From: a virus
Reading direction: 5' to 3' (one strand)
IMG/VR virus record: IMGVR_UViG_3300007363_002055
Location: 1 to 29,200 of that record
DNA length: 29,200 bases
Below are positions 1,723-29,200 of the stretch, piece by piece; position 1 is the first letter of the stretch; every line of letters begins with the position of its first letter. The notes beneath the pieces were generated by a model. That model was not told where the DNA came from. It searched no databases and saw only the letters and a list, made by a program, of their open reading frames with translations. Both the position numbers and the translations under genes were made by a program.

Positions 1723-1776
1723 ATGAGTTCACATATGAGTGTATACTTAATGTATGGCTTTATGATGAGAGGATAA
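1723..1776 (+). CDS. Possible 17-residue leader ORF
   Basis: ATG at 1723 opens a 17-codon frame (MSSHMSVYLMYGFMMRG) with an AAGGG seven bases upstream. It ends at TAA 1774-1776, one base before the ATG of the next gene. Its position suggests translational coupling or a leader. It is too short to judge by composition and may be chance. Confidence 0.25.
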   Translation: MSSHMSVYLMYGFMMRG

Positions 1777-1777
1777 A

Positions 1778-2257
1778 ATGAATATTTTTTATGTACATAG
1801 TGATCCATGGATTTCGGCTGTATCATTAGTCGATAAGCATATAATAAAAATGATTTTAGAGTCAGCCCAGATGTTATCAACATCCCATAGAGTTATTGAT
1901 AATGTAGATAATGATGTATTATATAAGGCTACTCATGTAAATCATCCATCTAATAAATGGATTCGTGAAAGTAAGTCTAATTATAATTGGTTATATAATC
2001 ATTTCTGTTATCTGGGAATGGAATATAAATTTCGGTATGGTAAAGTCCATAAATCTATTTCTAGGTTATCCGACGTTCTAAGATTTGCTCCTAAGAATTT
2101 AGAGGATGTAGGATTAACTAAAATGCCCTGCGCTATGCCCCAGGAATATATTATTTCCGATGATTCTATTGTCAATTATCGTAATTATTATAATCATGGC
2201 AAGAAGCATATTCATAAATGGACTAAACGTCCCCAACCGGAATGGATTTTAACATAA
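1778..2257 (+). CDS. Conserved phage protein of unknown function (DKHxxKMxLESAQ family)
   Basis: 159 residues, starting after a strong GAGGA ribosome binding site. I recognise the sequence pattern from aquatic T4-like phages, where homologues are annotated as hypothetical. The conserved blocks are an N-terminal NIFYVHSDP, then DKHIIKMILESAQMLSTSHR (residues 19-38), YKATHVNHPSNKWIRES, NYNWLYNHF, and a C-terminal NYRNYYNHGKKHIHKW followed by RPQPEW. The many conserved His, Asp, Trp and Arg residues suggest an enzyme or nucleic-acid-binding protein, but no catalytic motif can be assigned. It overlaps the next start by one base (TAATG). Confidence 0.75.
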   Translation: MNIFYVHSDPWISAVSLVDKHIIKMILESAQMLSTSHRVIDNVDNDVLYKATHVNHPSNKWIRESKSNYNWLYNHFCYLGMEYKFRYGKVHKSISRLSDVLRFAPKNLEDVGLTKMPCAMPQEYIISDDSIVNYRNYYNHGKKHIHKWTKRPQPEWILT

Positions 2258-2475
2258 TGTATTATATTAAGTTGAAGTTTAAAAGCACATTCGTATTATT
2301 TGAGGTAGAACGTAATATAACAAAATTTAAACGGCGATTAGCTAAATTCCAAGAGGGTAATGAACTAATCGAAAATGATATTATGAAATATGAATTATTT
2401 AGAAATTTTATCGTTGAGTCTCAGCAGGAATATATTCAATTAAGTTTCGAGACATATTGTAAGCTGATGGAGTGA
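2257..2475 (+). CDS. Small hypothetical protein
   Basis: 72 residues if the ATG at 2257 is used; it overlaps the previous stop as TAATG, a common re-initiation arrangement. An in-frame ATG at 2242 would add five residues but has no ribosome binding site. The protein begins with a beta-like YYIKLKFKSTFVLFEVE and continues as a charged, probably helical segment. I do not recognise a family. Confidence 0.6.
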   Translation: MYYIKLKFKSTFVLFEVERNITKFKRRLAKFQEGNELIENDIMKYELFRNFIVESQQEYIQLSFETYCKLME

Positions 2476-2509
2476 ATATATACATCTTTAAAACATAAGG
2501 ATTATTAAT

Positions 2510-2860
2510 ATGGTTCCTCCCGGCGGAAAGCATCTATTAGTTGATTATTGGGGCATTCTAGAAGATTTGCTAGATGATGAAGAACGAATTAAGCAAATAT
2601 TAATTGATGGTGCTATTCTGGGCGGTGCAACTATTCTATCATCACATATGCATCATTTTGGGGAGAATTATGGAGTTAGTGGGGTAATAGTGCTTGCAGA
2701 AAGTCATGTTTCATGGCATTCTTGGAAAGTGGAAAATTACTGTGCCATAGACATCTTCATGTGTGGTAATTGTGATCCTGAAAAAACAGAAGAATATTAT
2801 AGAGATACGTTTCAACCATTGCAGAGTAAAGTTAAAATGCACATTAGAGGGAATTTTTGA
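2510..2860 (+). CDS. speD: S-adenosylmethionine decarboxylase proenzyme (SpeD)
   Basis: Pyruvoyl-dependent S-adenosylmethionine decarboxylase, which makes decarboxylated AdoMet, the aminopropyl donor for spermidine synthesis. At 116 residues it has the short bacterial class 1B length. The self-cleavage site Glu64-Ser65 lies in LAESHVSWHSW; Ser65 would become the pyruvoyl group. His70 (processing) and Cys85 (catalytic, IDIFMCG) keep the spacing of the Thermotoga enzyme (Ser63, His68, Cys83). The N-terminal HLLVDYWGI and the glycine-rich YGVSGVIVLAES strand are typical. speD is a known auxiliary gene of T4-like cyanophages. The start follows AAGGA. The adjacent gene is a divergent paralogue. 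Confidence 0.93.
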   Translation: MVPPGGKHLLVDYWGILEDLLDDEERIKQILIDGAILGGATILSSHMHHFGENYGVSGVIVLAESHVSWHSWKVENYCAIDIFMCGNCDPEKTEEYYRDTFQPLQSKVKMHIRGNF

Positions 2861-2862
2861 TT

Positions 2863-3261
2863 ATGAGTGATAGTGATAATAAGTATTGGGGATATCATGG
2901 CATTTTCGATTGTTATAAAGGTGATATTTTATTAATTACATCACCAGAAAACATTAAGAATTTTATTGTTGATCTGGTGGAAACTATTGATATGGTTGCA
3001 TATGGTGAACCTATTATTGAGCATTTTGCAACACATGATCCTGAGAAGGCTGGATATTCATTGGTTCAATTGATTGAGACTTCCTCAATCACTGGCCATT
3101 TCGTGGATAAGACTGGTGAATTTTATATTGATGTATTCTCATGCAAGCCATATGATATTCAATTAGTTAGAAATTGTATTCAGGAATATTTCAATCCAGA
3201 ATCTATTAGTGCAATTACATTAAATAGACAGGCTAATTTTCTAGTTCAAGATAATTGGTAA
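2863..3261 (+). CDS. SpeD-like paralogue with altered cleavage site
   Basis: 132 residues, start taken at ATG 2863; a TTG at 2857 sits closer to the AGAGGGA site and is possible. The C-terminal half aligns with SpeD: ETSSITGH (72-79) against the SES-type site of SpeD, and FYIDVFSC (87-94) against AAIDIFMC. Ser74, His79 and Cys94 keep exactly the Ser-His-Cys spacing (5 and 15) of the gene just upstream. The residue before the cleavage Ser is Thr instead of Glu, and the residue after it is Ser instead of His. Such a protein could be a decarboxylase with a changed substrate, as described for some bacterial SpeD homologues acting on ornithine or arginine. It could also be a regulatory partner of the upstream SpeD, or inactive. 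The homology is clear by motif; activity is unknown. Confidence 0.7.
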   Translation: MSDSDNKYWGYHGIFDCYKGDILLITSPENIKNFIVDLVETIDMVAYGEPIIEHFATHDPEKAGYSLVQLIETSSITGHFVDKTGEFYIDVFSCKPYDIQLVRNCIQEYFNPESISAITLNRQANFLVQDNW

Positions 3262-5742: not shown

Positions 5743-6732
5743 TTAAATTTTAAATACTAGAAAATCTTTCTCTAGTTTTCTTGATTCTACTGTGTCATAT
5801 TTAGATAGTAGATTTCTCATTACCCATTCCCATTGATTTGAAATTTTTGTAATGTTATACCTAGTATCTGTATATGTCTTAACATAATTTAAATAATTAT
5901 CTAATTTTTTCTCTTTGATTTGCATAATAGCAGAATGAAGGGACTGTAGAAAAATGTTTGCATGAATGCTATGGTCACTATCTCCCTGATACATGAGATT
6001 AAGCCCACCAGACGTGTCAGGAAGGGCCGCAAAGTTCGGATGGACACAAAGTAGCCCCGCGCTCATTGCCTCGATCAGCGCCCTACAGGAAGTCTCCTGC
6101 CATATGCACGGATATGCGAAGATATCTGACGTTGACAAATATTCTCGCACGGTTTCATATTGAGCAAATCCATGATAGGTAATATCTTTATGATCATTAC
6201 ATTTATCATAGAGCGCCTGAAAATGTTTATCAGAATCTTCCCAACCATAAATTTTAAAACTAGAAAATACATGCAGATGAATATCATCAGAAAAATGTTC
6301 TGCTAATTTTTCAAATACTGGAACAAGAATACCTAATCCTCTCTGGGGAGTTGATGTGTAAATAATATTTACTTTCTTGTTCATATGTAATGATTTGTCT
6401 AATGGTGTAATACCATTCTCAATTACAATGTCATTCTCACTATATGGAATGCCTAATTTTTCACGAAACATATTATATTGCCAATTACTGACATATACAA
6501 TCTTGTGAAATTTACTTCTAAAATTATGATCCTTTAGTTTATTACATTCTGGATCATCTGGTAAATCATGAACCCAATAAATCCTAATCTTAGATTCATC
6601 TAATTCCCGAACCCGAGAACAAATAATTTGAAATTCAGATTGCAAATCCTGGGGCAGTAGCCTAGCTAGGTGGCGCTTTGCAAGTTCAGTGCCGCCATTA
6701 GCATTGATAGAAATTTCGTTTTCTTCAAACAT
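5743..6732 (-). CDS. Glycosyltransferase, family 4 type (GT-B fold)
   Basis: 329 residues. The C-terminal nucleotide-sugar domain shows the GT4 signature: IIYTSTPQRGLGILV (123-137), a Rossmann strand LHVFSS, and the E-x7-E motif (Glu213 and Glu221 in ETSCRALIEAMSAGLL). The N-terminal part has NGGTELAKRHL, as in acceptor-binding loops. It transfers a sugar from a nucleotide-activated donor; the acceptor is unknown. It overlaps the dCMP deaminase stop by eight bases (ATGTTTGA), so the two are co-translated. That placement in a nucleotide-metabolism operon makes DNA-base glycosylation worth considering, though a capsid or surface-glycan role is equally open. Bases 6001-6120 are 57% G+C, an island in an AT-rich gene. 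Confidence 0.85.
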   Translation of the reverse strand: MFEENEISINANGGTELAKRHLARLLPQDLQSEFQIICSRVRELDESKIRIYWVHDLPDDPECNKLKDHNFRSKFHKIVYVSNWQYNMFREKLGIPYSENDIVIENGITPLDKSLHMNKKVNIIYTSTPQRGLGILVPVFEKLAEHFSDDIHLHVFSSFKIYGWEDSDKHFQALYDKCNDHKDITYHGFAQYETVREYLSTSDIFAYPCIWQETSCRALIEAMSAGLLCVHPNFAALPDTSGGLNLMYQGDSDHSIHANIFLQSLHSAIMQIKEKKLDNYLNYVKTYTDTRYNITKISNQWEWVMRNLLSKYDTVESRKLEKDFLVFKI

Positions 6733-8100: not shown

Positions 8101-8718
8101 TTAAATTAACCAATCTAAAACTACTGGACCATTATAATCATTTTCAAAAATATACCAAAAATACTCACTATTATCAAAATTTATATTATCCATTCCATCT
8201 AGTTCCCATTTAGGTCTATTAGGGATTACTAAAATTTGTTTTAATTTTTTTAAATTATTAAACCAAATAGTTCGTTTTTGTGTGCCTATCCAAGAAGATT
8301 TTTGTAAAATGATAACCCTATCTGAGTATAATAATCCTTTTTCTACAAAATGACAAGCCAGACTAAAAGGAGGATTTGTTATAATAGAATTATATTTTTC
8401 TTGTATTTCTTCCAATAAAAAATCTCCAATTATACAATTGTTTTTACCTAAAATATTCAAAATTCCATTATTATTCCAATTATCGTATTCTTCGACTCTA
8501 ATATCAATTATTTTATGTTTGTTGATATTAGATTTATTTTCTATAATATATTTAATCATTCTACCATCACCCGCTGACGGGTCCAATATTTTCCCAGAAA
8601 AGTATTCGGGGTAATTATCTATTAATTTTTTATAAACATATAGTGGACTTCTAAATACTTCATATTGTTTATGTTCTAATTTTAAATTAGATTTGATTGT
8701 TCTTTTATCTATTTTCAT
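8101..8718 (-). CDS. Class I SAM DNA adenine-N6 methyltransferase-like protein
   Basis: 205 residues from ATG 8718, which has GGGA nine bases upstream and overlaps the homing endonuclease stop by 14 nt. A longer frame from 8751 lies wholly inside the upstream gene. Motif I is ILDPSAGDGRM (44-54), the SAM loop, and motif IV is ITNPPFSL (113-120), the NPPF form of N6-adenine and related amino-methyltransferases. No restriction endonuclease accompanies it, so it may be an orphan methylase that protects phage DNA. The gene is very AT-rich, like the endonuclease gene beside it, and the pair may have arrived together. Confidence 0.75.
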   Translation of the reverse strand: MKIDKRTIKSNLKLEHKQYEVFRSPLYVYKKLIDNYPEYFSGKILDPSAGDGRMIKYIIENKSNINKHKIIDIRVEEYDNWNNNGILNILGKNNCIIGDFLLEEIQEKYNSIITNPPFSLACHFVEKGLLYSDRVIILQKSSWIGTQKRTIWFNNLKKLKQILVIPNRPKWELDGMDNINFDNSEYFWYIFENDYNGPVVLDWLI

Positions 8719-10198
8719 TATTATATTCCCATTTAGTATTTCCACAATCATAAATTTTCATATATCCATTTTCTTTCATTATCTGAAATTCAGTTAAATG
8801 TTTATTAGTTTCATTGGATATTTTATGTTTTTGAAATTGTGTTCTATGGTATCTTTTATTATTTTCTGTTGGTTTAAAATAATAATATGATACTGGTGTT
8901 ATTCCTAAATCCACAAATCCAGATTTAGAATATCCTACACCATTACCCCATCTATTGCAACTATATGATATAATTTTATTATAATTTAAATTTTTCATTA
9001 TCTTACTAAGGCCACCTACAACTGCACAATTTTTAGTGCAAAATCTCAATAATTCTAAATTATATTCTTTATTATATCTAGGAGAATTAAGTGTAGCTAC
9101 AGCTACTAAATCATTTTCAAAATATAGTCCTTTATTAATTGAGCCAGTTTTGGATGACTGTATATGATATTTTTGAAGGAACAATTTAGCAGTTTCCTTA
9201 TCTATATCTAATAATTTACATTTTCTGGCATATATTTTATTTAAATTTTTCTTAAATTGGTATAATAACCGATTTTTAACTATATCTGGTTTATTTAATA
9301 TCTCATCCTCAAAAATAGTAATAAGTTTTATATTTTTACTTTTAGCTAATAAAAATTTATTTTGATGATAATTTTTATCTGTTCTACTCCCACTTAATAA
9401 TTTATTATCAATACTATGCCAATATAGCCCACATAATTCAATTCCTATATTATATTCTGGACAATAAAAATCTATCTCAAATTCTTTTAGTGATTTTCTA
9501 TCATTTTTAATATAATTAATTTCATTTAATTTCAACCAATCTTCGATAAAATTTTCTATTTGTGTTGAATTTTTACCAATTCTTTTTTCTATATTATGTC
9601 TACGTAAAGCTGAATATATTACAGTATCAGATACTCCAACTTCATTAGCAATAATTATTATTCCCTTTTTCTTCAATACATATTCATCGTATAAAAATTC
9701 ATAACTAAGTAAATTATATTTTTCTTCGCCTATTATATTTCTACTTATTATATTGCCCAATTCCCCAGGAGAATATTTTTCTTCAATAGTTTTTCGTATT
9801 TTAGATTTTATTATATTCTTATCATCTTCACTTTTATTAAGATACGCCATTTTAATAGAATTTTTTGTTTTTGACGATATTTCATCATTTAGATATGCAT
9901 TTTTAAATGATTTATTATACTTTGCTCTACAACTACATCCACAAAATTGTGCATATCCTCGGATAAAATTTCTTTCATAAAATTTAGTATCAGTTCCACA
10001 TTCTAAGCATTTTCTATTTACATCTATAAAAATAGAATTATATAATTTTTCATTAAACGTTTTTCCATATTCATTTTGAGTTAATCTTACAATCCAAGAA
10101 ACATATGAAAGATGTATTGGGCGTATACCATTATTATACGCCTCCTTTATAGTTTCTATATTCTGATCGGTATGATATAGTAAATATCTATAATTCAT
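8705..10198 (-). CDS. Free-standing Vsr-like (EDxHD-type) homing endonuclease
   Basis: 497 residues. The N-terminal part has a zinc-finger-like set (Cys64, Cys67, Cys86, Cys88, Cys90). A segment around 165-205 looks like a winged or helix-turn-helix DNA-binding region (IANEVGVSDTVIYSALRR). The nuclease core runs from about 213 to 310: FEIDFYCPEYNIGIELCGLYW with Asp243, Glu254 and His261, then YHQNKFLLAKSKNIKLITIFEDE. This is the Vsr-related EDxHD pattern of phage homing endonucleases. The remaining region (YARKCKL, LRFCTKNCAVVGGLSK, GYMKIYDCGNTKW) is conserved in large phage members of this type. It sits directly downstream of nrdB and near an intein-bearing nrdA. It is markedly AT-rich, a sign of an invading gene. 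Its ribosome binding site lies in a hairpin. Confidence 0.87.
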   Translation of the reverse strand: MNYRYLLYHTDQNIETIKEAYNNGIRPIHLSYVSWIVRLTQNEYGKTFNEKLYNSIFIDVNRKCLECGTDTKFYERNFIRGYAQFCGCSCRAKYNKSFKNAYLNDEISSKTKNSIKMAYLNKSEDDKNIIKSKIRKTIEEKYSPGELGNIISRNIIGEEKYNLLSYEFLYDEYVLKKKGIIIIANEVGVSDTVIYSALRRHNIEKRIGKNSTQIENFIEDWLKLNEINYIKNDRKSLKEFEIDFYCPEYNIGIELCGLYWHSIDNKLLSGSRTDKNYHQNKFLLAKSKNIKLITIFEDEILNKPDIVKNRLLYQFKKNLNKIYARKCKLLDIDKETAKLFLQKYHIQSSKTGSINKGLYFENDLVAVATLNSPRYNKEYNLELLRFCTKNCAVVGGLSKIMKNLNYNKIISYSCNRWGNGVGYSKSGFVDLGITPVSYYYFKPTENNKRYHRTQFQKHKISNETNKHLTEFQIMKENGYMKIYDCGNTKWEYNNENR

Positions 10199-11247: not shown

Positions 11248-13479
11248 TTAACCCTCACATTGGATGCATTCGTTATCGTCACTATTCATTTGTAATTCTG
11301 GAATTTCATCAATTACATTCCTCTCGATTTGTTCAGATAGATTATCTGCTCTTTTTAACTTCTCACTTCTACAATAATACAATGATTTAATCCCAAACTT
11401 CCAGGCCAGAAAATGTGTATTATGTAATTTTTGTATTTTGACATTTGGCGGAAGAAATATATTAATAGATTGTCCCTGATCAATATATTTTTGTCTCATT
11501 GCTGCTAATAGAATAATCCAATTCTGATCAAGTTCCATGGCAGTTTTAAATACATTTTTCTGATGTTTAGTTAGAAAACTTAGATGTTGAACTGATCCAT
11601 TATTTGAAGCAATATTTCTCCACATGTCCTCAATATCTAAATTCATTTCGGCACATTTTTTCATTAGAATTTTATTCAGAAATTTATTCTTATTTAATCC
11701 CGCACCAGATAATGTATCTTGTCTATATGCATTAGCTGAGAATGGTTCGATAGATGGTGAGGTATTGCCCATAATAATAGATGTAGATGCATTAGGAGCA
11801 ACACTCATTACATGTGATAATCTATTACCTGTTCCCTCTGCATCTGGGGCTTCTCCACGTTCCTTACCTAATCTTTTATTAGCAATATCACATTGTTCCC
11901 TAATATGTTTAAACATTACATTATTAATATTAATCGCTGCTAGACTTTCAAATACAATATTATTTTTTTGAAGATATGCATGGAATCCTAATGCACCTAG
12001 ACCAACTGATCTTTCTCTTGTAGCAGAATAAATTGCTCTAGAAATCGCTTGTGGCGCATCATCAATAAATGTCTGTAATACATTATCCAACATTTCCATA
12101 ATATCAGAAATGAATAATTCATTATTTTTCCATTCATCAAAATATTCTAATCCTACTGATGATAGGCAACATACCGCTGTTCTATCTTTATTAGTTGGCA
12201 ATTCTATTTCGCTACAGTTATGTAATAATATCCCATTACCAAAGAAATTATGATTTCCTTCAACTGTAATATCATATACTGAAATTTCCTCCTCAAGATA
12301 TTCTAAAATATTATTTTTTGTTTTTACTTTTTTATCCTCTTTATATGAATTTTCCTTGAAATGGCAAAATAATTTATCAGTTTCTAATAATTCTTTAGCC
12401 ATAACATATTCTCTATTAGTTGTATAAATTTTATGTTCCGGCGTGCAAATTATATAATTTCCATTTTCCATAGTTATTTTCATAACTTTAGCTTTTGGGT
12501 TAGTTAATGAAAAATGAGTTACAGGTTTAAATTCGAGTTTATTTGTAGTAATGTCATATGAATAAACTTTTATCATAGATTTATTCATATAATTTCCTAG
12601 TTCACTCATTTTTACATCTATAATATTTTCATTTTCGTCCAATATGGTAATTATTGTATCACCAGATACACAAAGATTGGACTGTTGAATCTTTAATCCT
12701 TTGTCCTTTAGCCAATATGGTAAACCTTTATTGGCAGTATCAATAAAATGAAGATATGGTTCACCTGTCTCAATTCTAGTAGTCATAATTTTCTGCCATA
12801 ATTGTTTAGCAGAAATGGTATTTCTTACCTTACCATTAGGGTCCTTCAATTGCCACGAATCATCATAATCTTCATATTTCATACAATTTTCAATAATTCT
12901 CATGAAATCGTCAGTAATATTGATGCCATGATGAATGTTAGGCGCCCGCATTCGGGGATCGCCTGTTGTTCTACGCATATCAATAAACATTTCGATATCA
13001 GGATGATCAATATTTAGATATGTGGCAAATGATCCACGTCTACTTGTTCCTTGTTTATATGCCAATGTTGCAGCATCATAAATTTTAAGGTGTGGCATAA
13101 TGCCTACAGACAATTCATCTGCTGATCTAATATCAAAACCAATTCCAACACCACCACCAAGCATTGATAACCAATTCGTCTCTGATAGGGTATCTACTAA
13201 CCCCTCTTTACTATCATGTAAATAGGGCAGATAGCAAGAAATAGGGAGTCCATTTTTTGTTCTTCCATATGATAGAACCGGCGTAGCATATGATAGCCAA
13301 TGTTTGGAACTGTAATCATATAGTCTTTGTGCATGTTCTGGATTTGAACCAAATTTCTGTGAAACGTATGCGAATCGTTCTTGTGGGGAGGTTTCCTCCG
13401 GTCGCATATATGATTCTTTTAATCTTGTAATACCTAATTCATCAAATAAATTGTCACGAGTTTTATCAATTTTAATCAT
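11248..13479 (-). CDS. nrdA: Ribonucleotide reductase class I, alpha subunit, with mini-intein
   Basis: 743 residues as translated, about 591 after removal of a 152-residue intein. NrdA reduces ribonucleoside diphosphates. The extein parts carry ISCYLPYL with a redox Cys, the catalytic QSNL-C-SEIELP block (thiyl Cys, the residue directly after the intein, with Asn and Glu at the right spacing), AVCCLSSV with the second redox Cys, the radical-transfer pair in SLYYCRS, and a C-terminal ECIQCEG tail that would accept electrons from glutaredoxin. The N-terminal ATP-cone of E. coli NrdA is absent, which suggests loss of overall activity control by dATP. The gene precedes nrdB and follows thyX in the same direction. 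Confidence 0.95.
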   Translation of the reverse strand: MIKIDKTRDNLFDELGITRLKESYMRPEETSPQERFAYVSQKFGSNPEHAQRLYDYSSKHWLSYATPVLSYGRTKNGLPISCYLPYLHDSKEGLVDTLSETNWLSMLGGGVGIGFDIRSADELSVGIMPHLKIYDAATLAYKQGTSRRGSFATYLNIDHPDIEMFIDMRRTTGDPRMRAPNIHHGINITDDFMRIIENCMKYEDYDDSWQLKDPNGKVRNTISAKQLWQKIMTTRIETGEPYLHFIDTANKGLPYWLKDKGLKIQQSNLCVSGDTIITILDENENIIDVKMSELGNYMNKSMIKVYSYDITTNKLEFKPVTHFSLTNPKAKVMKITMENGNYIICTPEHKIYTTNREYVMAKELLETDKLFCHFKENSYKEDKKVKTKNNILEYLEEEISVYDITVEGNHNFFGNGILLHNCSEIELPTNKDRTAVCCLSSVGLEYFDEWKNNELFISDIMEMLDNVLQTFIDDAPQAISRAIYSATRERSVGLGALGFHAYLQKNNIVFESLAAININNVMFKHIREQCDIANKRLGKERGEAPDAEGTGNRLSHVMSVAPNASTSIIMGNTSPSIEPFSANAYRQDTLSGAGLNKNKFLNKILMKKCAEMNLDIEDMWRNIASNNGSVQHLSFLTKHQKNVFKTAMELDQNWIILLAAMRQKYIDQGQSINIFLPPNVKIQKLHNTHFLAWKFGIKSLYYCRSEKLKRADNLSEQIERNVIDEIPELQMNSDDNECIQCEG
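12217..12672 (-). other. Mini-intein in NrdA (152 residues, no endonuclease domain)
   Basis: The insertion spans residues 270-421 of the precursor. It starts with CVSGDTIITI (block A, Cys1) and has TPEH in block B (TxxH). It ends with VYDITVEGNHNFFGNGILLHN (blocks F and G, penultimate His, terminal Asn) before Cys+1. All residues for protein splicing by the standard class 1 route are there. The 152-residue length leaves no room for a LAGLIDADG or HNH domain; a lysine-rich linker (about 104-128 of the intein) fills the usual endonuclease position. The +1 Cys is also the catalytic thiyl cysteine, so the enzyme is inactive until splicing. Confidence 0.95.
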
Positions 13480-13519
13480 CTATTTTCCTATTACTATTTT
13501 TATTGTAGAGTATCTATTA

Positions 13520-14224
13520 TTATTCAATAAAGGAAAAATGCTTCTTTATTTCTTTTTTTATTAAATCAGAAATAATTCTATGTTCTTTCTGGGAAGCCAT
13601 TTCACTACGAATATCAGTATAATGAATGAACGATCTCAATGTTCCACTAAAATACATTCTAGTCATTAGATTACCCTCTGGTAATACACTTCTAGCATTT
13701 TCTTTTGCAATACCCAATTCAATTGCTCTATTATATTTCGATTCGGCAAATTCAATTACTTCTACTTGAATTTTATACCATTCTTCATTAATAGGATCGT
13801 TATCATCAACAATTTCAATTGAATTTTGTCTATTTTTACTATCCTGTAGTCTTGCCTCTCTGGAAACAAATCCTAATTCTTTTGTTGGATCAGAATATCT
13901 TCCGCTAAACTCTTGAATCGAAAAGGATTTATGTCGAATAATTTGCCTTCCGATATCTCTTGTAGTATTAATTTCAAAACATAATGATACAATTTCAAAT
14001 ACTGACCAATGTTTATTTTTGATACAATAATTTAACAATTTTCCACTAGTTAATGTATTCATTTGATTACTAGGATTCGATACTCTAGCAGTATACGCCA
14101 GAAATTCCTCTGGTGTCAATCGACAATTTGTTAGAGGATTGATTTTTAGTGGTTCAGTTAATGCAATTAATTCTACTGATGCGTAATCACTATAGTCTTT
14201 ATATTTTTTATTTTTATCAATCAT
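13520..14224 (-). CDS. thyX: Flavin-dependent thymidylate synthase
   Basis: 234 residues. ThyX makes dTMP from dUMP using FAD, NADPH and methylene-tetrahydrofolate. The ThyX signature RHRxxSxxxxSxRY appears as RHKSFSIQEFSGRY (97-110), with Lys for the third Arg. Downstream, ENARSVLPEGNLMT and FIHYTDIRSEMASQKEHR match the substrate-binding helices. ThyX rather than ThyA is common in aquatic phages. With the dCMP deaminase and NrdAB, it completes a dTTP supply line. Its start overlaps the upstream small gene by eight bases (ATGATTGA). Confidence 0.93.
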   Translation of the reverse strand: MIDKNKKYKDYSDYASVELIALTEPLKINPLTNCRLTPEEFLAYTARVSNPSNQMNTLTSGKLLNYCIKNKHWSVFEIVSLCFEINTTRDIGRQIIRHKSFSIQEFSGRYSDPTKELGFVSREARLQDSKNRQNSIEIVDDNDPINEEWYKIQVEVIEFAESKYNRAIELGIAKENARSVLPEGNLMTRMYFSGTLRSFIHYTDIRSEMASQKEHRIISDLIKKEIKKHFSFIE

Positions 14225-14420
14225 TATTTTCTGATTTCTCCCATGCCCAATTTACAACAACCCAATCATCTACACAATAATTTTCCGTGATCCATTCATG
14301 ATCGGGACCGAATTTTTCTATCATCCGTTTACTCCACCAGGGCCAATATGTTTTCAATATTTCTTCTCTGGTAATTTCTAATGGATGGTCTTCGCCTAAT
14401 TCATTATATAAGTATATCAT
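14217..14420 (-). CDS. Small conserved phage protein, Trp-rich
   Basis: 67 residues from ATG 14420, chosen because GGAGG lies eight bases upstream and the ATG overlaps the primase stop as TAATG. Upstream in-frame TTG and ATG codons lie inside or before the ribosome binding site. The sequence is rich in Trp (TYWPWWSKRM, HEWITENY, DDWVVVNWAWE) and acidic residues. Similar small proteins ending in a VVNWAWE-like block occur in cyanophages, as far as I recall, without known function. It is coupled to both primase and thyX. Confidence 0.7.
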   Translation of the reverse strand: MIYLYNELGEDHPLEITREEILKTYWPWWSKRMIEKFGPDHEWITENYCVDDWVVVNWAWEKSENND

Positions 14421-15451
14421 TAACATTTCCTCCAATATTTCAATCTAAGTAATCCATCTAATGATGAATGAATATTATTCTTAATAATTACTTTAATTTC
14501 ATTCTCACTCATACCGAACATCACCATATCATTTATGTCTTTATGGTGTAGATTATCTGGCCAGATTACCACTTTTACACCACGTTTTATACAATTTTCT
14601 ATTTTATGCACAATCTCTTTATTGCGTGGTTCATTATCGTATATTACAATTCCATTAGTATATAAATTTGGAAGTATATTGTCATTAAATACGAAATCTG
14701 ACCCACCCATTGCAATAGAATTATTAATAAACATAGAGTCAAATGGACCCTCGGTTATATAATATTCTTTATTGAAATTGATTGTATCCAGACCAAATAT
14801 TTTAGGATAATCTTCATTGAGAACTATTGAAAAATATTTTGGTTCTATTTTTGGATTGAATGCCCTACCCTGGACAACAAACACTTCTTTCTTTTTATTG
14901 AAGAATGGAATTACTAACCTAGGTTCATCAGAATTAGGGCTGAATTTTTCGGGAAGTAAAGTATTGATCCATTCTCGAAATTTAGGAGCATAATATAATT
15001 TATGATGATATTGGGTGGGAATTTTTCTATTCCCCACATATAATTTAGCAGAATGATTATGTTTCAATTGTGAAATTTTCTTTAAACCATTCATGATGGC
15101 ATCAACACCAATAAATTTAGGCTTATTCATCACAATATCTGGCGGTTTAGTATTATTCCGATGAACTTCTGTTGTTATTTCTAGAAATAATTCCTGGCAA
15201 TACTCATCATATAATGTGGTATTGTATTGTTTTAGAAAATTCTTGAAGGACATACTCGCACTACAATTATGACAATAGAGGAAATATGAACTCCCTTTCT
15301 CAAAGAAATAACATCTAGCCTTCAATTTATTGGATGAACTATCTCCACATATTGGACATGAACAATTAGCTAGATTATTAGATTTCCATCTAAAATTTCT
15401 TAGTGCAGAACTATTTAAATTTACATATTTTTTATCTAACCATATACTCAT
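14420..15451 (-). CDS. 61: DNA primase (T4 gp61-like)
   Basis: 343 residues. It makes RNA primers for lagging-strand synthesis with the gp41 helicase. The N-terminal zinc ribbon is Cys32/Cys35 (CPICGDS) and Cys60/Cys63 (CHNC). A TOPRIM domain follows, with YITEGPFDSMF (Glu234) and IVIYDNEPRN (Asp272, Glu274) as metal-binding residues, then a DINDMVM block. The length matches T4 gp61 (342). A consensus sigma70-type promoter lies in the 63-nt gap upstream. It is the first gene of the minus-strand replication and nucleotide block. Confidence 0.93.
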   Translation of the reverse strand: MSIWLDKKYVNLNSSALRNFRWKSNNLANCSCPICGDSSSNKLKARCYFFEKGSSYFLYCHNCSASMSFKNFLKQYNTTLYDEYCQELFLEITTEVHRNNTKPPDIVMNKPKFIGVDAIMNGLKKISQLKHNHSAKLYVGNRKIPTQYHHKLYYAPKFREWINTLLPEKFSPNSDEPRLVIPFFNKKKEVFVVQGRAFNPKIEPKYFSIVLNEDYPKIFGLDTINFNKEYYITEGPFDSMFINNSIAMGGSDFVFNDNILPNLYTNGIVIYDNEPRNKEIVHKIENCIKRGVKVVIWPDNLHHKDINDMVMFGMSENEIKVIIKNNIHSSLDGLLRLKYWRKC

Positions 15452-15485
15452 ATATTATAGAACCCTACATTATCATAGACCCCAC

Positions 15486-15514
15486 ATTATATCAGTATAT
15501 GGTTAGGTTGTCAA
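15486..15514 (-). promoter_or_regulatory. Consensus sigma70-type promoter for the primase block
   Basis: On the minus strand, TTGACA (15514-15509), a 17-nt spacer and TATAAT (15491-15486) match the bacterial consensus at every one of 12 positions with ideal spacing. Transcription would begin near 15478, about 27 nt before the primase ATG. The -35 box starts directly after the stop codon of the upstream lysis gene, at the border between the late module and the replication block. It is probably a host-polymerase early promoter. Confidence 0.88.
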
Positions 15515-15853
15515 CTATAGTTTGAGGATAAACTTGTAGACGAAGGGCATAATGAACATGAGAACGGCTAAAATTCCTGTGGCATACCATTTAAATTGCT
15601 CTAAATGTGTTACTCTTTTACTAATTTCCTTGACATTTTCAATATCAACAATTTCAGATTTTTCCTGAGTAGCTAATTTTAGATCATGCATAATAATTGT
15701 TTCCTTAAGGGAGGACAATACTGTTGATAGTTTATCCATGGTCGATTCTAATCTAGATAAAAATTGTGTCAACTGCTGCTGTTCCCGTTCGATAATAGCC
15801 AATCTAGTGTGGAACGAGGTTGCTAATTTATCCGTAGTATCAGTATTATCCAT
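15515..15853 (-). CDS. XhlA-like coiled-coil protein with C-terminal membrane anchor
   Basis: 112 residues. A polar, Gln/Glu/Leu-rich helical region (about 15-88) with heptad spacing precedes one hydrophobic segment (WYATGILAVLMFIMPFVY, 89-106) and a short Lys-tipped tail. The order of coiled coil then single TM resembles the XhlA/hemolysin-like proteins encoded beside holins in other phages. It overlaps the holin stop as TAATG, so the two are translated together. It could be a holin partner or lysis regulator. Identification rests on layout and context, not on a signature motif. Confidence 0.6.
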   Translation of the reverse strand: MDNTDTTDKLATSFHTRLAIIEREQQQLTQFLSRLESTMDKLSTVLSSLKETIIMHDLKLATQEKSEIVDIENVKEISKRVTHLEQFKWYATGILAVLMFIMPFVYKFILKL

Positions 15854-16392
15854 TATTTTTTATCTCCTATTAGAGCATCTATTTGTTTCGTTTTCATAAA
15901 TGATCCGCTACTCGATCCAAAATAGTAACTAAAAATGACACCTATAATAGCATCAAGCGTTCCTAAAGTCCTCATAATAATTTCCCGCATTTCAGCAGGT
16001 AATGTTTGTCCTGATACTACTAACCATATTTGAATAAATGCATATACTAATAGAATAGAATATGCCAAATATTTGTTTGTATTATCTTTTGTATTTATCT
16101 CTCTACTTCTTGCACTATCTCTATCATTATTATCAAGAGCAATTACATCTATTTCCAATTTTTTCATTTGTAGTTTAAAATTGGTTTCTAATTCTTTTAA
16201 TTTTAATAGAGTTTCTGGATTAGCCTTAGCGATTTCTTCATATACTTTTTCTTCCGAAGTATCTTCACTTAATCCTAATACTCCGGCCAGTGACCTAACA
16301 GCCATTCCAGCCAATGGTCCACCTAATGCTGTAGCTATAGTTGGAGCCACCGTTCCTAATATATTTTTAGCTGCTTTCAGTAATTCGTCCAT
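15853..16392 (-). CDS. Holin, 3-TM superfamily type
   Basis: 179 residues. There is an N-terminal Gly/Ala-rich hydrophobic stretch (about 11-40: ILGTVAPTIATALGGPLAGM), a charged helical middle (50-105) with DNNDRDSAR, then two TM segments (about 108-127 and 139-160) ending in SYYFGSSSGS. The D-x-x-SAR and YYFGSS-GS signatures match the family called holin of 3TMs, known from gene-transfer agents and marine phages. It would form the membrane lesion that starts lysis. No endolysin gene is adjacent; the RlpA-like protein at 3363 is the only wall-active candidate in the window. Confidence 0.8.
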   Translation of the reverse strand: MDELLKAAKNILGTVAPTIATALGGPLAGMAVRSLAGVLGLSEDTSEEKVYEEIAKANPETLLKLKELETNFKLQMKKLEIDVIALDNNDRDSARSREINTKDNTNKYLAYSILLVYAFIQIWLVVSGQTLPAEMREIIMRTLGTLDAIIGVIFSYYFGSSSGSFMKTKQIDALIGDKK

Positions 16393-18424: not shown

Positions 18425-19591
18425 TTATTTTCTCCTTGCTACGTCTAAAAATTGTTTGAATGATGATCGCATCATTTTGGCTGCTTGTGCTTTTTCAAAT
18501 GCACTTAACCCGTTATAATATCTTAATGCTAATTTTGCTAATGCAGGAGAAATATTCATAGTAGTTTTATTCTCGAAATTGAATGGCACTTCAACATCAT
18601 TTTCAGATGCTTTTTGTAATGCTTTAACTATTCTAACACTAGATGCGATTTTACCTGTATGTGTGGCATTACCCTCTGATTCACTTAATGCATCAAAATC
18701 AATTTCTTCTTCCTCGTTAACTGTAGGGGAAATTTCTTTCATTCTATTCTTAATTCGATCAACTGCACTTTCTTTTTCTTTTTTAAGTGGTTCTGCAACA
18801 GCCGGAGTATTACCTTTAACTAAATCAAGAGAAATACTATTTAAATCATCGGCAGATAATTCAGGTTTAGATGCAGATTTAGCAACTGGTTTAGCAACAG
18901 GTTTAGCAACAGGTTTAGCAACAGGTTTAGCAACAGGTTTAGCAACTGGTTTATCAGCAGGCATTCTGCTATTACTAGATGATCCATCGGGCATTGTTGG
19001 TTTATCAGCAGGCGTAATAGGATCAGATGCTTTAGCTGTATCTTTACTTAGTAATAATGGAGCAGCTAAAATTGATGGAATTGCAGCTTTCTTAACAACT
19101 GCCGGAACATTAGATTTAGGAGTAGTTGGAGATACATCAGGTAAATTACTATCATTAGCAGCAGCAGATGCACTATCCATTTTTCTAGTTAATGATTTTC
19201 CTGGTGGTGGTGTTCCTGGGGGACTAATTTTAGGAACGTCAGGAGTGGCATCTTTTGCAACTGATGGAGTAGGTGGTTTAGATGGGGTAACTTTTGGAGC
19301 AGCACTAGAAGCGGCGGCAGTAGCCTTGTCTTTAGCTTTTTTAGCTAAAAATTTCAATACATTAAAAGCTACACCAACAGGACTTTTGGGAATAAATTCT
19401 TCACCAACTATATCAGATACTTCTTTTTTATTTTCAATCATATCATCTTTATCGTCCTTATCGGAACCTTTTTTATGTTTATGTTTATCCTTAGATTTAC
19501 TTTCATCTAAAGATTCTCTATTAAAAATACTTCTTACAATATCCATTTCTGCATCAGAAACGCCTAATTTACTTTGTAATGTTACTGACAT
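18425..19591 (-). CDS. Disordered Pro/Ala/Lys-rich late protein with VAKP repeats
   Basis: 388 residues from ATG 19591, which has GGAG six bases upstream; a TTG at 19603 lies inside that site and is less likely. A short helical N-terminus (TLQSKLGVSDAEMDIVRSIF) is followed by a Lys/Asp-rich patch, then a long low-complexity region of Pro, Ala, Ser and Thr, with six tandem VAKP units near residues 215-238. The last 60 residues are again ordered (SPALAKLALRYYNGLSAFEK, AAKMMRSSFKQFLDVARRK). Ends that fold, joined by a disordered linker, fit a scaffold, tether or virion-internal protein. Its place at the head of the late operon supports that. I do not recognise a family. Confidence 0.72.
   Translation of the reverse strand: MSVTLQSKLGVSDAEMDIVRSIFNRESLDESKSKDKHKHKKGSDKDDKDDMIENKKEVSDIVGEEFIPKSPVGVAFNVLKFLAKKAKDKATAAASSAAPKVTPSKPPTPSVAKDATPDVPKISPPGTPPPGKSLTRKMDSASAAANDSNLPDVSPTTPKSNVPAVVKKAAIPSILAAPLLLSKDTAKASDPITPADKPTMPDGSSSNSRMPADKPVAKPVAKPVAKPVAKPVAKPVAKSASKPELSADDLNSISLDLVKGNTPAVAEPLKKEKESAVDRIKNRMKEISPTVNEEEEIDFDALSESEGNATHTGKIASSVRIVKALQKASENDVEVPFNFENKTTMNISPALAKLALRYYNGLSAFEKAQAAKMMRSSFKQFLDVARRK
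18878..18949 (-). repeat. Six tandem 12-bp units coding VAKP
   Basis: The plus-strand unit TTTAGCAAC(A/T)GG is repeated six times without interruption from 18878 to 18949. The four inner copies are identical; the outer ones differ by one base. A decayed copy, TTTATCAGCAGG, follows at 18950-18961 and recurs at 19001-19012. The units encode Val-Ala-Lys-Pro on the minus strand. Near-identity at the DNA level points to recent slippage expansion, so copy number probably varies between relatives. Confidence 0.92.
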
Positions 19592-19599
19592 ACCATACT

Positions 19600-19646
19600 C
19601 CAAATTACATTTATTTATTCTTTTATATATTATTTATGTAATTTGG
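19600..19646 (-). promoter_or_regulatory. Hairpin with late-promoter boxes upstream of the late module
   Basis: CCAAATTACAT (19646-19636 in minus-strand RNA) pairs perfectly over 11 bp with ATGTAATTTGG (19610-19600), whose last two bases belong to the GGAG ribosome binding site of the next gene. Two late-promoter-like boxes read on the minus strand lie in this segment: CATAAATA (19638-19631) and AATAAATA (19619-19612). Transcripts from further upstream would hide the site. Transcripts started at these boxes would lack the 5' arm. T4 gene e uses the same logic. Confidence 0.55.
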
Positions 19647-25086: not shown

Positions 25087-25734
25087 ATGTATGTAGTAGG
25101 ATCATTTAATAATGAATCTTTTGAAGAACTTGCTGATGTTACCGATTCTACTAAAATAGAATATGGTAACATCCATGGATACAAAGTATATTTAAAAAAG
25201 AATAACTGGCGAAGTTCTGATATGGGTTTCGCCAGAATTCATTATGTAAAAGAAGTGTTTGAATTATTTCCAGAAACCGAATGGCTATTTTTAGTTGATT
25301 GTGATGCAATCATAACTAATTATACGATTAAAATAGAAGATATGGTTGACAACAACTATCATCTGATCTATACTGTATATCATAATGGCTTTAATGTTGG
25401 TAATGGATTATTTAGAAATAGTCCAGAGGGTAGAGATTATATTGACTACATTCTTTCATTAGAAGGAAAATATTTACCTCATCCCTGGAAAGAACAACAA
25501 GCTATCATTGATACTTATGAAAAATACAAGAGCATCATTAAAGTTGTTCCTGCTAGATTTATGAATAGTCTTCAACGTCAAGTCTATGATAGGAATCAGC
25601 TTCCAACTGAAATTGATCTATTAGGACATAATATGATATGGCAACCGGGAGATTGGGCTTTACATTGGCCTGGGGCTGATCATAAGGGACGAATTGAACA
25701 AGCTAAGGTTATGTTAAATAATATTGTGAGGTAA
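25087..25734 (+). CDS. GT34-type (GMA12/MNN10-like) glycosyltransferase
   Basis: 215 residues. A DxD motif (Asp71-Cys-Asp73) in TEWLFLVDCDAIITN would bind Mn and the nucleotide sugar. FNVGNGLFRNS, HPWKEQQAI and the C-terminal WALHWPGADHK follow the pattern of GT34 galactosyl/mannosyl-transferase-like proteins. It starts a run of sugar genes right after gene 32. The acceptor is unknown and could be a phage or host glycan. The upstream gap is eight bases, with a poor ribosome binding site. Confidence 0.82.
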   Translation: MYVVGSFNNESFEELADVTDSTKIEYGNIHGYKVYLKKNNWRSSDMGFARIHYVKEVFELFPETEWLFLVDCDAIITNYTIKIEDMVDNNYHLIYTVYHNGFNVGNGLFRNSPEGRDYIDYILSLEGKYLPHPWKEQQAIIDTYEKYKSIIKVVPARFMNSLQRQVYDRNQLPTEIDLLGHNMIWQPGDWALHWPGADHKGRIEQAKVMLNNIVR

Positions 25735-25737
25735 GTT

Positions 25738-27060
25738 GTGCAAAAAATACTTGATTCGGTATCTGATTATATTTTCGATAAAGAAAATAATAAAGTATGG
25801 AAAGAAGGTGATCAGATCAATTATTCTGGTCCTTTTTTTAATGAAAAAGAATATGTTGCAGGAGTGAAATCATTACTTGATGGTTGGTTAGGTTTAGGAA
25901 AAGCAGGTTCTCATTTTGAATCTATGTTTCCTAAACAACTAGGTAAGAAATTTGGTATTCTAACAAATAGCGGATCATCTGCTAATTTGTTAATGTATTC
26001 TGCATTGAAAAGTAGACGGTTATATAATCTACCAGAGGGAACTAAAATCCTGACTCCCGTGGCAGGATTTCCAACTACAATTAATCCAATTATTCAATTA
26101 GGGTTTGAACCAGTATTTGTGGATATTGAATTAAATACTCTTAATCTGGATTTAGATGCATGTGAAAAGATAATTCAACATGACCATGATATTAAAGTTA
26201 TATCATTTGCTCATGTATTAGGTAATCCACCTAATATGGAAAGAGTAATGTATCTTATTGATAAGTATAAATTAATACTATTAGAAGATTGTTGTGATGC
26301 ATTAGGGTCAACCTATAATGGAAAACTATTAGGTAGTTTTGGTCAAATGGCTACTTGTAGTTTCTATCCGGCCCATCATATTACTATGGGTGAAGGTGGG
26401 TTTGTAGCTACAAATTCTACTGATGAACATACTGTATTAAAATCATTTCGTGATTGGGGTAGAGGATGTTATTGTCAGGGATCGGCAGCAAATAATTTAA
26501 AATGTGGAACTTGTGGGAAGAGATTTTCAAATTGGATGCCAGAAATGCCCAATGAGATTTTTGACCACAAATATATCTATGATGAAATTGGATATAATCT
26601 AAAACCGATTGAATTACAGGCTGCTATTGGTCTAGAACAATTGAAAAAATTAAGTCAAATAATTAGACTTAGAAGAATGAATTTTTTCGGAATGTATAGT
26701 ATGTATTTTCTCTATGAAAAGTATTTTATTCTTCCCGAGTCTACTGATTATTCTCTTCCATCCTGGTTTGCATTTCCATTAACTATTAGACCAACTGCTC
26801 CATTTACTAGAGAAGAAATAGTAAATCATATGGAAAATAATGGAATTCAAACAAGACCTTATTTTGGTGGCAATATTCTGTTACAGCCTGGATATGTAGA
26901 TGTAGCGAAGAAATGTTCTAATAATCCATTAACAGATTTTCCAAATGCCACATATGCGACTAGGAATACATTTTTTCATGGGGTATCTCCTAACCTAACT
27001 GCGGAACAGATGGAATATATTAAGAAAACATTGGATAAGTTTATGGAGAAATATTCATGA
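25738..27060 (+). CDS. rfbH: CDP-4-keto-6-deoxyglucose 3-dehydrase (E1, DdhC/RfbH-type)
   Basis: 440 residues from GTG 25738 after AGGTAAG. Fold type I PMP-dependent enzyme of the DegT/DnrJ/EryC1/StrS group. The motif CSFYPAHHITMGEGG (207-221) has His (214) at the position where aminotransferases have the PLP lysine, the mark of sugar 3-dehydrases (E1, ColD). A [2Fe-2S] set is present: Cys186, Cys244, Cys246 and Cys256 (C-x57-C-x-C-x9-C, against C-x57-C-x-C-x7-C in E1). ColD lacks this cluster, which favours E1. Further blocks are TNSGSSANLLMYSAL and GYNLKPIELQAAIG. E1 removes the C3 hydroxyl on the route to 3,6-dideoxyhexoses and needs an E3 reductase, not seen in the window. The following genes fit a branched-sugar pathway. 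Confidence 0.88.
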   Translation: MQKILDSVSDYIFDKENNKVWKEGDQINYSGPFFNEKEYVAGVKSLLDGWLGLGKAGSHFESMFPKQLGKKFGILTNSGSSANLLMYSALKSRRLYNLPEGTKILTPVAGFPTTINPIIQLGFEPVFVDIELNTLNLDLDACEKIIQHDHDIKVISFAHVLGNPPNMERVMYLIDKYKLILLEDCCDALGSTYNGKLLGSFGQMATCSFYPAHHITMGEGGFVATNSTDEHTVLKSFRDWGRGCYCQGSAANNLKCGTCGKRFSNWMPEMPNEIFDHKYIYDEIGYNLKPIELQAAIGLEQLKKLSQIIRLRRMNFFGMYSMYFLYEKYFILPESTDYSLPSWFAFPLTIRPTAPFTREEIVNHMENNGIQTRPYFGGNILLQPGYVDVAKKCSNNPLTDFPNATYATRNTFFHGVSPNLTAEQMEYIKKTLDKFMEKYS

Positions 27061-28115
27061 GAGTATGTGACTATATTGCCAATCAATTAAATAATATTGG
27101 CATAGAGCGAATCTATGGATTAATGGGCGGTGGCGCATCAGGATTAAATGATGGATTTATCAAACATCCTGGATTAGATTATATTTGTTTTCATAATGAG
27201 CAAGGGGCAGGACATGCAGCAATCGGGGAGTCAAAGACTAGAAATTTTCTGTCTGTGGTTAATCCTACTACTGGCTGTGGGGGAACTAATTGCATTACCT
27301 CTGTTCTAGATGCATGGCAAGATAGTGTCCCAGTATTATTCATTTCTGGTAACGTGAGACAAGATCAAACATCCTATATGTATAATAAAAACATGAAGGA
27401 TAAAGATCATCTTTTCATCAGGAAACATGGTATTCAGGAAAATAATATTATTCCAATTATTGAGAGTATTACGAAATATTCTAAATTTATAGACAATGCC
27501 GATTTAATTAGAGGCGTATTACAGAATGCAGTAAATGAGGCATTATCTGATAGAAAAGGTCCAGTTTGGTTAGACATTCCTGCTGATGTTCAGACTGCGG
27601 AAATTCCAGATGATACTAAGGATATTGAAATTCGACTAACATTTTCTGGTAATGAAAGTATTGAATCTGATTTCGTAGATAGATTTCTATCATATAAACA
27701 GTATAGTAGACCATTATTTTTAGTTGGTAATGGTATTAGACAAAGTGGTAATGTAGATAGATTCCTGCAATTAGCTAAACAATATGATATTCCCTATGTG
27801 TCTACTTATGGAGCAAGAGACTTCTCAGATTTTTATTATAAATTAAATCTTGGATGTATTGGCGTCAAGGGATCGCGATTAGGGAATATGGCAATGCAAA
27901 ATTGTGATCTTCTAATGATCCTAGGAACCTCCCTAAATGTATCTCATGTGGGGTATGATGCAAGTAAATTCTCACCAAATTCATTTAAAATTTTAATTAC
28001 TAATGATAAAAGTGAAATGTATAAGAATATCATTCCATTAAATTACATTAGATATATGGATTTGACTGAATTTTTCTGGCAAATTAAGAAATTTGGAGAT
28101 GATAATAATGCATAA
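27057..28115 (+). CDS. Thiamine-diphosphate enzyme, N-terminal and central domains
   Basis: 352 residues with the PYR domain and the central domain of an acetolactate synthase-like enzyme. The catalytic Glu48 lies in CFHNEQGAGHAAIG. VNPTTGCGGTNCITSVLDAW and the GPVWLDIPADVQ block follow. The central domain has RPLFLVGNGIRQSG and DLLMILGTSLNVSH. The C-terminal ThDP-binding domain is missing here and is encoded by the next gene, eight bases overlapping. Beside an RfbH gene, the closest functional model is YerE, the ThDP enzyme that adds a two-carbon unit to C4 of CDP-3,6-dideoxy-4-ketoglucose in yersiniose synthesis. That role is inference. Confidence 0.85.
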   Translation: MRVCDYIANQLNNIGIERIYGLMGGGASGLNDGFIKHPGLDYICFHNEQGAGHAAIGESKTRNFLSVVNPTTGCGGTNCITSVLDAWQDSVPVLFISGNVRQDQTSYMYNKNMKDKDHLFIRKHGIQENNIIPIIESITKYSKFIDNADLIRGVLQNAVNEALSDRKGPVWLDIPADVQTAEIPDDTKDIEIRLTFSGNESIESDFVDRFLSYKQYSRPLFLVGNGIRQSGNVDRFLQLAKQYDIPYVSTYGARDFSDFYYKLNLGCIGVKGSRLGNMAMQNCDLLMILGTSLNVSHVGYDASKFSPNSFKILITNDKSEMYKNIIPLNYIRYMDLTEFFWQIKKFGDDNNA

Positions 28116-28920
28116 AAATGAAGTATTGTGGTTTGGTCTAATTAATGATTGGCGAGATGAATTTTTTGAGCATGATGAAATATCTGACCAAAATTCAATT
28201 TATACTAGGATGGATATGATTTCAGATGTAGCCAGATCAAGTGATACTATATTTGTAATTGATGCAGGATCACCATCATATACATTTCCTGCAAGGTATT
28301 CTTTTAAACTTAATCAAAGATTAATTTCTAGTCCTAGTCAGGCTGACATGGGTTGGGCTATTCCGGCTTCTGTTGGTGTAGCTCTATCGGAACCAGATAA
28401 AAATGTAATTGTAGTAGTTGGTGATGGTAGTTTTATGTCTAATATTCAGGAACTTGCAGTAATTAAACAACATAATCTTCCAATTAAAATTATAGTATTT
28501 AATAATAATGGATATCTATCAATTAAAAATACTCAGAATAATTTTTATAATAATAGAGTTCATGGTGTAGATGATAAGTCTGGATTATATTTCCCGGATT
28601 TAGAAAATATTGCAAAATCATTTGGCTTCAATTATGTAAAATTTGATATAATAACTAAATTAGTAAATATATTAGCATCTGATGTTGACCGTTTGGATAA
28701 ATGTATTAATGAGAATAATGAACCAACTATTATTGAAATGATGTGTCTGGAAAATGAGGAAATTATCCCCTCACAGAATTTTAAAATTGGTCTAGATGGC
28801 AAAAAAATTCAGGCAGGATTGGATGATATGTATCCATTCTTACCAGAGGAAACTATGGAATATTTTAATACTCTAAATCAAGATTATAAAATTCTAGATA
28901 TTAGTGAGAAATTTAGATGA
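28108..28920 (+). CDS. Thiamine-diphosphate enzyme, C-terminal ThDP-binding domain
   Basis: 270 residues from ATG 28108, which has GGAG at good distance and overlaps the previous stop (ATGCATAA). The ThDP/Mg motif is GDGS (105-108) followed by Asn132-134 in VFNNNGYLSI. SQADMGWAIPASVGVAL is the conserved preceding block. Together with the gene upstream it would make one complete enzyme of about 620 residues, close to single-chain acetolactate synthase-like enzymes. The overlap and clear ribosome binding site argue for a real split, not a sequencing error. The C-terminal 50 residues extend past the usual domain end. Confidence 0.85.
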   Translation: MHKNEVLWFGLINDWRDEFFEHDEISDQNSIYTRMDMISDVARSSDTIFVIDAGSPSYTFPARYSFKLNQRLISSPSQADMGWAIPASVGVALSEPDKNVIVVVGDGSFMSNIQELAVIKQHNLPIKIIVFNNNGYLSIKNTQNNFYNNRVHGVDDKSGLYFPDLENIAKSFGFNYVKFDIITKLVNILASDVDRLDKCINENNEPTIIEMMCLENEEIIPSQNFKIGLDGKKIQAGLDDMYPFLPEETMEYFNTLNQDYKILDISEKFR

Positions 28921-29200
28921 AAAATAGAACATATTATATTTTAGGATCAGATGGATTTATCGGTTCTGTATTAATGCGAGAATTACCAAAATATTGTGAT
29001 AGCGTTATTGGAGTAAATAGAAACACTATTAAAGATTTCACTGACTTAAATGAAATGCAAAAATATTTCAAATCCATGGATCAATATAACAGTTATGTCA
29101 TCAATTGTGCAGCATCCGGTGGCAAGGAAAAAGTTGGTGAGTATGACAAATATGAACTTTGGAATAATATAAAGATTAATGATAATATTATGTCACTTAG
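28917..29200 (+). CDS. NAD-dependent sugar-nucleotide epimerase/dehydratase (SDR), 3' end outside window
   Basis: The first 94 codons only; the frame is open at the window end. The start overlaps the previous stop as ATGA. YYILGSDGFIGSVLMREL carries the GxxGxxG-like Rossmann motif as GSDGFIGS, followed by VINCAASGGKEKVGEYDKYE, the strand with NCAA that contacts NAD. This is the N-terminus of an extended SDR enzyme. In the yersiniose pathway the step after YerE is a reduction by the SDR YerF, so this gene may fill that place. The catalytic YxxxK lies beyond the window, so the reaction cannot be judged. Confidence 0.8.
   Translation, partial: MKNRTYYILGSDGFIGSVLMRELPKYCDSVIGVNRNTIKDFTDLNEMQKYFKSMDQYNSYVINCAASGGKEKVGEYDKYELWNNIKINDNIMSL

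Follow-up and report, generated by a model that had tools for sequence, protein, structure and literature searches.

A phage nucleotide-sugar cassette with a two-subunit YerE-like thiamine diphosphate enzyme, probably for synthesis of a C4-branched 3,6-dideoxyhexose

We have analysed a 29,200-nucleotide stretch of viral DNA (IMG/VR record IMGVR_UViG_3300007363_002055, positions 1 to 29,200), referred to here as the window. It is a linear virus record of 29.2 kb, and at its right end, separated by tiny gaps or overlaps, are genes for a glycosyltransferase family 34 (GT34)-like transferase, an RfbH-type dehydratase, a thiamine diphosphate (ThDP) enzyme encoded by two open reading frames (ORFs), and a partial short-chain dehydrogenase/reductase (SDR), in that order. 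We read this region, with a probability of about 0.72, as a phage nucleotide-sugar cassette for a C4-branched 3,6-dideoxyhexose, probably dTDP-linked, in which the branch would be added by a two-subunit, YerE-like ThDP enzyme. The likely product is a nucleoside diphosphate (NDP)-3,6-dideoxy-4-C-branched hexose. A first-pass annotation of the same DNA had proposed deoxygenation at C3, addition of a C2 unit at C4, and reduction; the order of chemistry, with an acyl unit as the addition at C4, is supported by the enzyme families described below.

The same annotation had placed a single ThDP protein after the dehydratase. Such an enzyme is present at that position, but its Pfam domains are divided between two plus-strand ORFs. 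Subunit 1 (27057..28115, 352 aa) contains the PYR domain and the central TH3 domain (TPP_enzyme_N and TPP_enzyme_M, the latter with E 9e-22), and subunit 2 (28108..28920, start approximate, 270 aa) contains the PP domain (TPP_enzyme_C). The activating Glu is E48 of subunit 1 and the GDG...NN ThDP-Mg motif lies in the PP domain of subunit 2; all of these elements are thus found across the pair. The 2 ORFs overlap by 8 bases if subunit 2 starts at ATG 28108, which is preceded at a distance of nine bases by GGAG (28095-28098); further in-frame starts are located upstream, at 28099 and 28093.

Viral relatives were collected by a scan with the second half of the enzyme, which gave 49 loci, and with a profile of the first half, from which 80 of 121 relatives were used; near-copies were merged before loci were counted. 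Among the 64 viral loci that could be scored, 60 had the split pair and 4 carried one fused gene of ~600 aa, and in 48 of the 60 split loci the halves overlapped by 4 bases. We ruled out a frameshift or sequencing error as the source of the split, given its presence in 60 loci and the shared overlap in 48 of them. In the phylogenetic tree, the fused viral genes were nested among the split ones (support 99/89 at the join, 96/98 and 100/98 at deeper nodes), which is most simply explained by a single split followed by a single re-fusion. The numbers of split and fused loci, and the position of the fused genes within the split clade, are strong sequence-based evidence that the 2 halves function together as one enzyme. 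The nine best matches among 398 sampled Bacillota genomes were read as fused enzymes of ~600 aa (the raw frame of one of these, G208, contains two in-frame stops, with a 579-aa ORF still present), and the idea that the split is a fixed bacterial inheritance was dropped because the bacterial relatives found are fused.

Several comparisons were made to assign this enzyme to a class. The best sequence matches were structures 5ahk and 8rph (JanthE) for subunit 1 and JanthE 8rph for subunit 2. Structure 5ahk carries the title acetohydroxy acid synthase Pf5; we take it to be PpYerE. An AlphaFold2 model of subunit 1, with a predicted local distance difference test score (pLDDT) of 82, matched the folds of 6lpi, 5ahk and JanthE, and models of both halves fitted the corresponding parts of JanthE and of acetohydroxy acid synthase (AHAS, or acetolactate synthase), with JanthE ranking first for subunit 2. 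The first-pass annotation had asked for a phylogeny of the ThDP enzyme with YerE, and this phylogeny bore out the kinship: the phage enzymes formed one clade (100/100) that grouped with JanthE and fused bacterial enzymes, and PpYerE joined this group, away from IlvB, IlvI and another AHAS (98/91 in one tree, 100/99 in the other). As judged from these relationships, the window enzyme belongs with the YerE-like enzymes, apart from acetolactate synthase, although JanthE and PpYerE are on long branches, which leaves the nearest bacterial relative and the finer placement unsure. An Arg in the active site of AHAS binds the acceptor carboxylate, and a Trp also has a role there. In the window enzyme this Arg, part of a DDR motif, is replaced by Ser, and the QWQ sequence of the Trp region is replaced by KNTQ, as in the bacterial enzyme of locus L080. 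Since PpYerE keeps the Arg, its loss is not diagnostic by itself and is supporting, not decisive. Sulfopyruvate decarboxylase (ComD/ComE), a two-subunit enzyme that is not known to have a central TH3 domain, is disfavoured by the TPP_enzyme_M domain in the N-terminal half, as well as by the phylogeny and the active-site residues.

The dehydratase gene (25738..27060, plus strand, 440 aa) encodes an RfbH/DdhC(E1)-type NDP-4-keto-6-deoxyhexose 3-dehydratase of the pyridoxamine phosphate (PMP) and [2Fe-2S] type. Its product scored 455 bits on the NCBIfam RfbH equivalog NF011936, above the cut-off of 423, and its closest solved structures were 3bcx and 3bb8, the CDP-6-deoxyhexulose 3-dehydrase (E 9e-97 for 3bcx). 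All four Fe-S cysteines (C193, C251, C253 and C261, in 3bcx numbering) are kept, and a His occupies the position of the pyridoxal phosphate lysine; the equivalog score and the alignment to 3bcx agree with the first reading of this protein as a DdhC/RfbH-type dehydrase with Fe-S cysteines and His in place of Lys. These five residues are also kept in nearly all RfbH copies of the viral cassettes; in L032 the first cysteine is replaced by N. In addition, the window protein and most viral RfbH copies that adjoin ThDP genes have a five-residue insert with an extra Cys beside the Fe-S cysteines, which was not found in the bacterial RfbH copies compared. The viral RfbH of L006 and L016 is of the bacterial form, without this phage-type insert. 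Shorter, ColD-like paralogues that do not have the Fe-S cluster motif were seen in L008, L015, L034 and L044.

The association of these genes was examined in 63 distinct viral loci that have the N-terminal half of the ThDP enzyme, with RfbH and GT34 counted when no more than 6.5 kb from the ThDP gene. RfbH was present in 54 of the 63 loci, and in 7 of the other 9 the ThDP gene is near one end of the locus; the RfbH-ThDP arrangement is not due to chance. An SDR was found in 53 loci, an RmlB-like dehydratase with the catalytic STDEVYG-type motif in 49, a class I aminotransferase alongside the ThDP genes in 25, and GT34-like relatives in 11. In the window, the SDR begins at 28917 on the plus strand and 94 aa of it are encoded (28917..29198) before the window ends; it matches the Pfam Epimerase family (E 4e-8) and is a candidate branch-ketone reductase. 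Its best viral match was 46% identical over 87 aa (in L103/L104), followed by SDRs that come after ThDP pairs elsewhere. No sibling was found when sequence past 29200 was sought through the SDR, and a near-identical sibling, L051, stops within the ThDP gene. The GT34-like gene (25087..25734, plus strand, 215 aa; Glyco_transf_34, E 4.5e-18) adjoins the dehydratase on its upstream side. Both the SDR and the GT34 assignments of the first-pass annotation therefore held, and the recurrence of GT34 in 11 loci fits a synthesis-and-transfer cassette without proving one.

From these enzyme families we infer the following substrates and order of steps. The host would supply dTDP-glucose, as well as the electrons for reduction at C3. 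The RfbH-type enzyme would take the C3 hydroxyl off an NDP-4-keto-6-deoxyhexose, after which the two-subunit ThDP enzyme, with an active site predicted where the PYR domain of one chain faces the PP domain of its partner, would decarboxylate a 2-oxo acid and put the acyl unit on the C4 ketone. The SDR encoded after the ThDP pair may then reduce the ketone of the added side chain, and the finished sugar would be attached by the GT34-like transferase or by another. Donors of YerE-like enzymes vary (pyruvate for YerE, 4-hydroxy-2-oxo acids for ErwE, and several for JanthE; PMC12247030), and an acetyl group is therefore not a given as the added unit. It is speculation that the class I aminotransferase might supply the 2-oxo acid donor. 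This aspartate-aminotransferase-like gene lies between the RfbH and ThDP genes, at 7831-8997 of L019 and at the same place in ~25 loci. A conserved protein of ~241 aa is encoded upstream of RfbH at 5788-6522 of L019 and in 19 other loci; it has no Pfam match, and its GADT motif recalls GT-A transferases.

Two other readings of the cassette were weighed against this pathway. In the first, which was already disfavoured and appears very improbable, the two ThDP genes encode an acetolactate synthase serving branched-chain amino acid or central metabolism, and RfbH is an incidental neighbour. Acetolactate synthase models do rank first for both halves in family libraries, and ThDP genes of such type can carry an ilvB label in viral surveys. 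However, the scores are far below the curated AHAS cut-offs (these scores are lowered because each half covers only part of a model), the AHAS acceptor residues are lost, the enzyme is placed apart from AHAS in the trees, and RfbH is linked to it in 54 of 63 viral loci. More serious, yet still unlikely, is a true CDP-yersiniose A pathway (DdhA, DdhB, DdhC, DdhD, YerE and YerF), with the host supplying the missing parts. The RfbH score above its equivalog cut-off, the presence of rfbF and rfbG beside bacterial relatives of the ThDP gene, and the possibility that DdhA and DdhB of the host provide CDP-4-keto-6-deoxyglucose are in keeping with such a pathway. However, no PF00483 nucleotidyltransferase (DdhA) and no TIGR02622 CDP-glucose 4,6-dehydratase (DdhB) scored over cut-off in 25 related viral records, and the RmlB-like dehydratase found in most cassettes would be superfluous in a host that already made the CDP intermediate. 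Likewise, no DdhD was found in 26 records including the window when sought by the Fer2 domain (PF00111), a search that a reductase without Fer2 would escape. The yersiniose pathway named in the first-pass annotation, which had proposed a look beyond 29200 for DdhA, DdhB or DdhD, is thus not supported by the viral records, some of which are fragments, so that these absences are not proof. The RmlB-like proteins are ~36% identical to annotated RfbB and only ~25% to RfbG, and their nearest model is that of the dTDP-glucose dehydratase. The presence of this dehydratase in sister cassettes, together with the absence of a cytidylyltransferase, points to dTDP as the probable nucleotide carrier, and CDP seems unlikely in the viral cassettes on the same sequence comparisons. 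A 3-dehydratase of this type, SpnQ, uses dTDP sugars and works with general ferredoxin or flavodoxin reductases (PMC8987622).

Some observations weigh against a dTDP-linked, YerE-type branching pathway as we have outlined it. The long branches of JanthE and PpYerE blur the placement of the viral ThDP clade, and the AHAS Arg is present in PpYerE also. The RmlB-like proteins scored ~292-307 bits with the dTDP-glucose dehydratase model, under its cut-off of 365, so that dTDP is just the likeliest carrier. The window ends inside the SDR, and any RmlB-like gene of its own would lie beyond; DdhD-type reductases were sought by one domain, Fer2.

The finished sugar would likely be destined for the surface of the host or for the virion. 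DNA glycosylation is known in T4-like phages, and a possible but less favoured view is that the same chemistry yields a sugar for modification of phage DNA or of a virion protein, which competes with the surface-glycan target only and leaves the pathway as described. The location of the cassette among replication genes (gp32 and gp59 in the window, and genes for the clamp and clamp loader close to the cassette of L008) can be cited for this view. Against it, none of the window genes scanned could be recognised as base-hydroxylating or base-modifying, and cyanophage sugar gene sets are usually read as lipopolysaccharide (LPS) genes, also without proof (PMC2984593). Phage-borne LPS genes have been interpreted as changing the cell surface during infection as a defence against other phages (PMC2984593). 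Such a surface change is plausible for the present cassette, and so is glycosylation of the virion or of DNA.

The cassette shares features with several known systems. YerE transfers activated acetaldehyde from pyruvate onto CDP-3,6-dideoxy-4-ketoglucose (PMC12247030). The YerE-like lyases (YpYerE, PpYerE 5ahk, ErwE and JanthE 8rph) have the same domains, activating Glu, GDG...NN motif and clade as the window enzyme (JanthE has CDG in place of GDG), and bacterial relatives are linked to rfbF, rfbG and rfbH. They differ in that they are single polypeptides of ~560-620 aa, whereas the window and most viral relatives have two, a single chain not being needed for the chemistry. With the yersiniose A pathway of Yersinia pseudotuberculosis (DdhA-D, YerE and YerF) the viral cassettes share the order of 3-dehydratase, YerE-like C4 acylation and SDR; they differ in having an RmlB-like dehydratase, in the failure to find DdhA, DdhB or a Fer2 reductase in sister records, and, often, in an extra class I aminotransferase between the RfbH and ThDP genes. 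SpnQ shares the PMP and [2Fe-2S] 3-dehydratase type, dTDP sugars and general reductases (PMC8987622), but acts on a 2,6-dideoxy sugar substrate in the synthesis of spinosyn, an antibiotic, with no ThDP branching afterwards. The cyanophage LPS or polysaccharide sets, such as the 24 LPS genes of P-SSM2 (PMC2984593), also combine nucleotide-sugar enzymes and glycosyltransferases in T4-like phages. Synechococcus phage RN05-S has an RfbH relative; the window RfbH is only ~37% identical to the cyanophage ones, and no YerE-like enzyme was seen in the cyanophage stretch examined, unlike the window.

ThDP enzymes that accept ketones are rare and are wanted as catalysts, and viruses are named in a 2025 review as a place where they have yet to be looked for (PMC12247030). 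The clade described here, found in at least 60 loci of uncultured viruses, offers natural split and re-fused forms for comparison. It also suggests that phage genes labelled ilvB in viral surveys may serve surface-sugar synthesis instead of the metabolism of amino acids. It is, moreover, a pointer to a class of branched sugars, which phages may turn against competitors or host receptors. More tentatively, bacterial viruses might own a widespread dTDP-linked pathway for a C-branched dideoxysugar not known from cells, in which an RmlB-like dehydratase and a phage-type RfbH are combined with a YerE-like enzyme that was split once and re-fused once.

In bacteria, nine of the 398 Bacillota genomes had close ThDP matches, and in eight bacterial stretches that were read, rfbG and rfbH are near the ThDP gene in five (L080, L082, L084, L085 and L086), four of which have rfbF too. 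L081 has rfbF and rfbH, L083 rfbF only, and L087 rfbG with transketolase-type genes. These neighbours connect the enzyme class with the synthesis of 3,6-dideoxyhexoses. The 50,697 deposited phage records gave no true relative, and matches there were at most 38% identical; the annotated ones are acetolactate synthases and many resemble host DNA in unannotated records, and they were not used. Records labelled as phages of Listeria, Staphylococcus, Salmonella and others (H1-H36) have acetolactate synthase genes that resemble host DNA. Plasmid matches were ~34% identical or less, and a scan of genome contigs with a single query sequence gave one relative, L052. Transketolase-type branching genes beside RfbH, as on plasmids of Methylovirgula and Desulfobaculum, were set aside as a different enzyme class from that of the window; no such gene was found in the viral loci. 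We found no literature on phage-borne yersiniose or YerE.

By its gene content the window is a fragment of a T4-like phage: a Pfam scan identified gp32-like, gp59-like and PhoH proteins, and ribonucleotide reductase, ThyX and DNA ligase are encoded too. The nearest relatives of its gp32 are those of Sinorhizobium phages (59% identity), with cyanophages next. On the minus strand, the window also encodes a group 1 glycosyltransferase (5743-6732), a homing-endonuclease-like protein (8705-10198) and a protein with repeated PVAK units inside a low-complexity stretch (18425-19603). In L019, a viral record of 337 kb, the cassette is followed at 13108-16261 by QueE-like, NAD-synthetase-like and UDP-glucose-dehydrogenase-like genes. 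Beside the branching cassette of L008, at 3-3126, is a likely GDP-colitose set consisting of a GDP-mannose 4,6-dehydratase (534 bits, over cut-off), a GDP-fucose-synthase-like protein and a ColD-like 3-dehydratase, parts of which also occur in L015, L034, L043 and L044.

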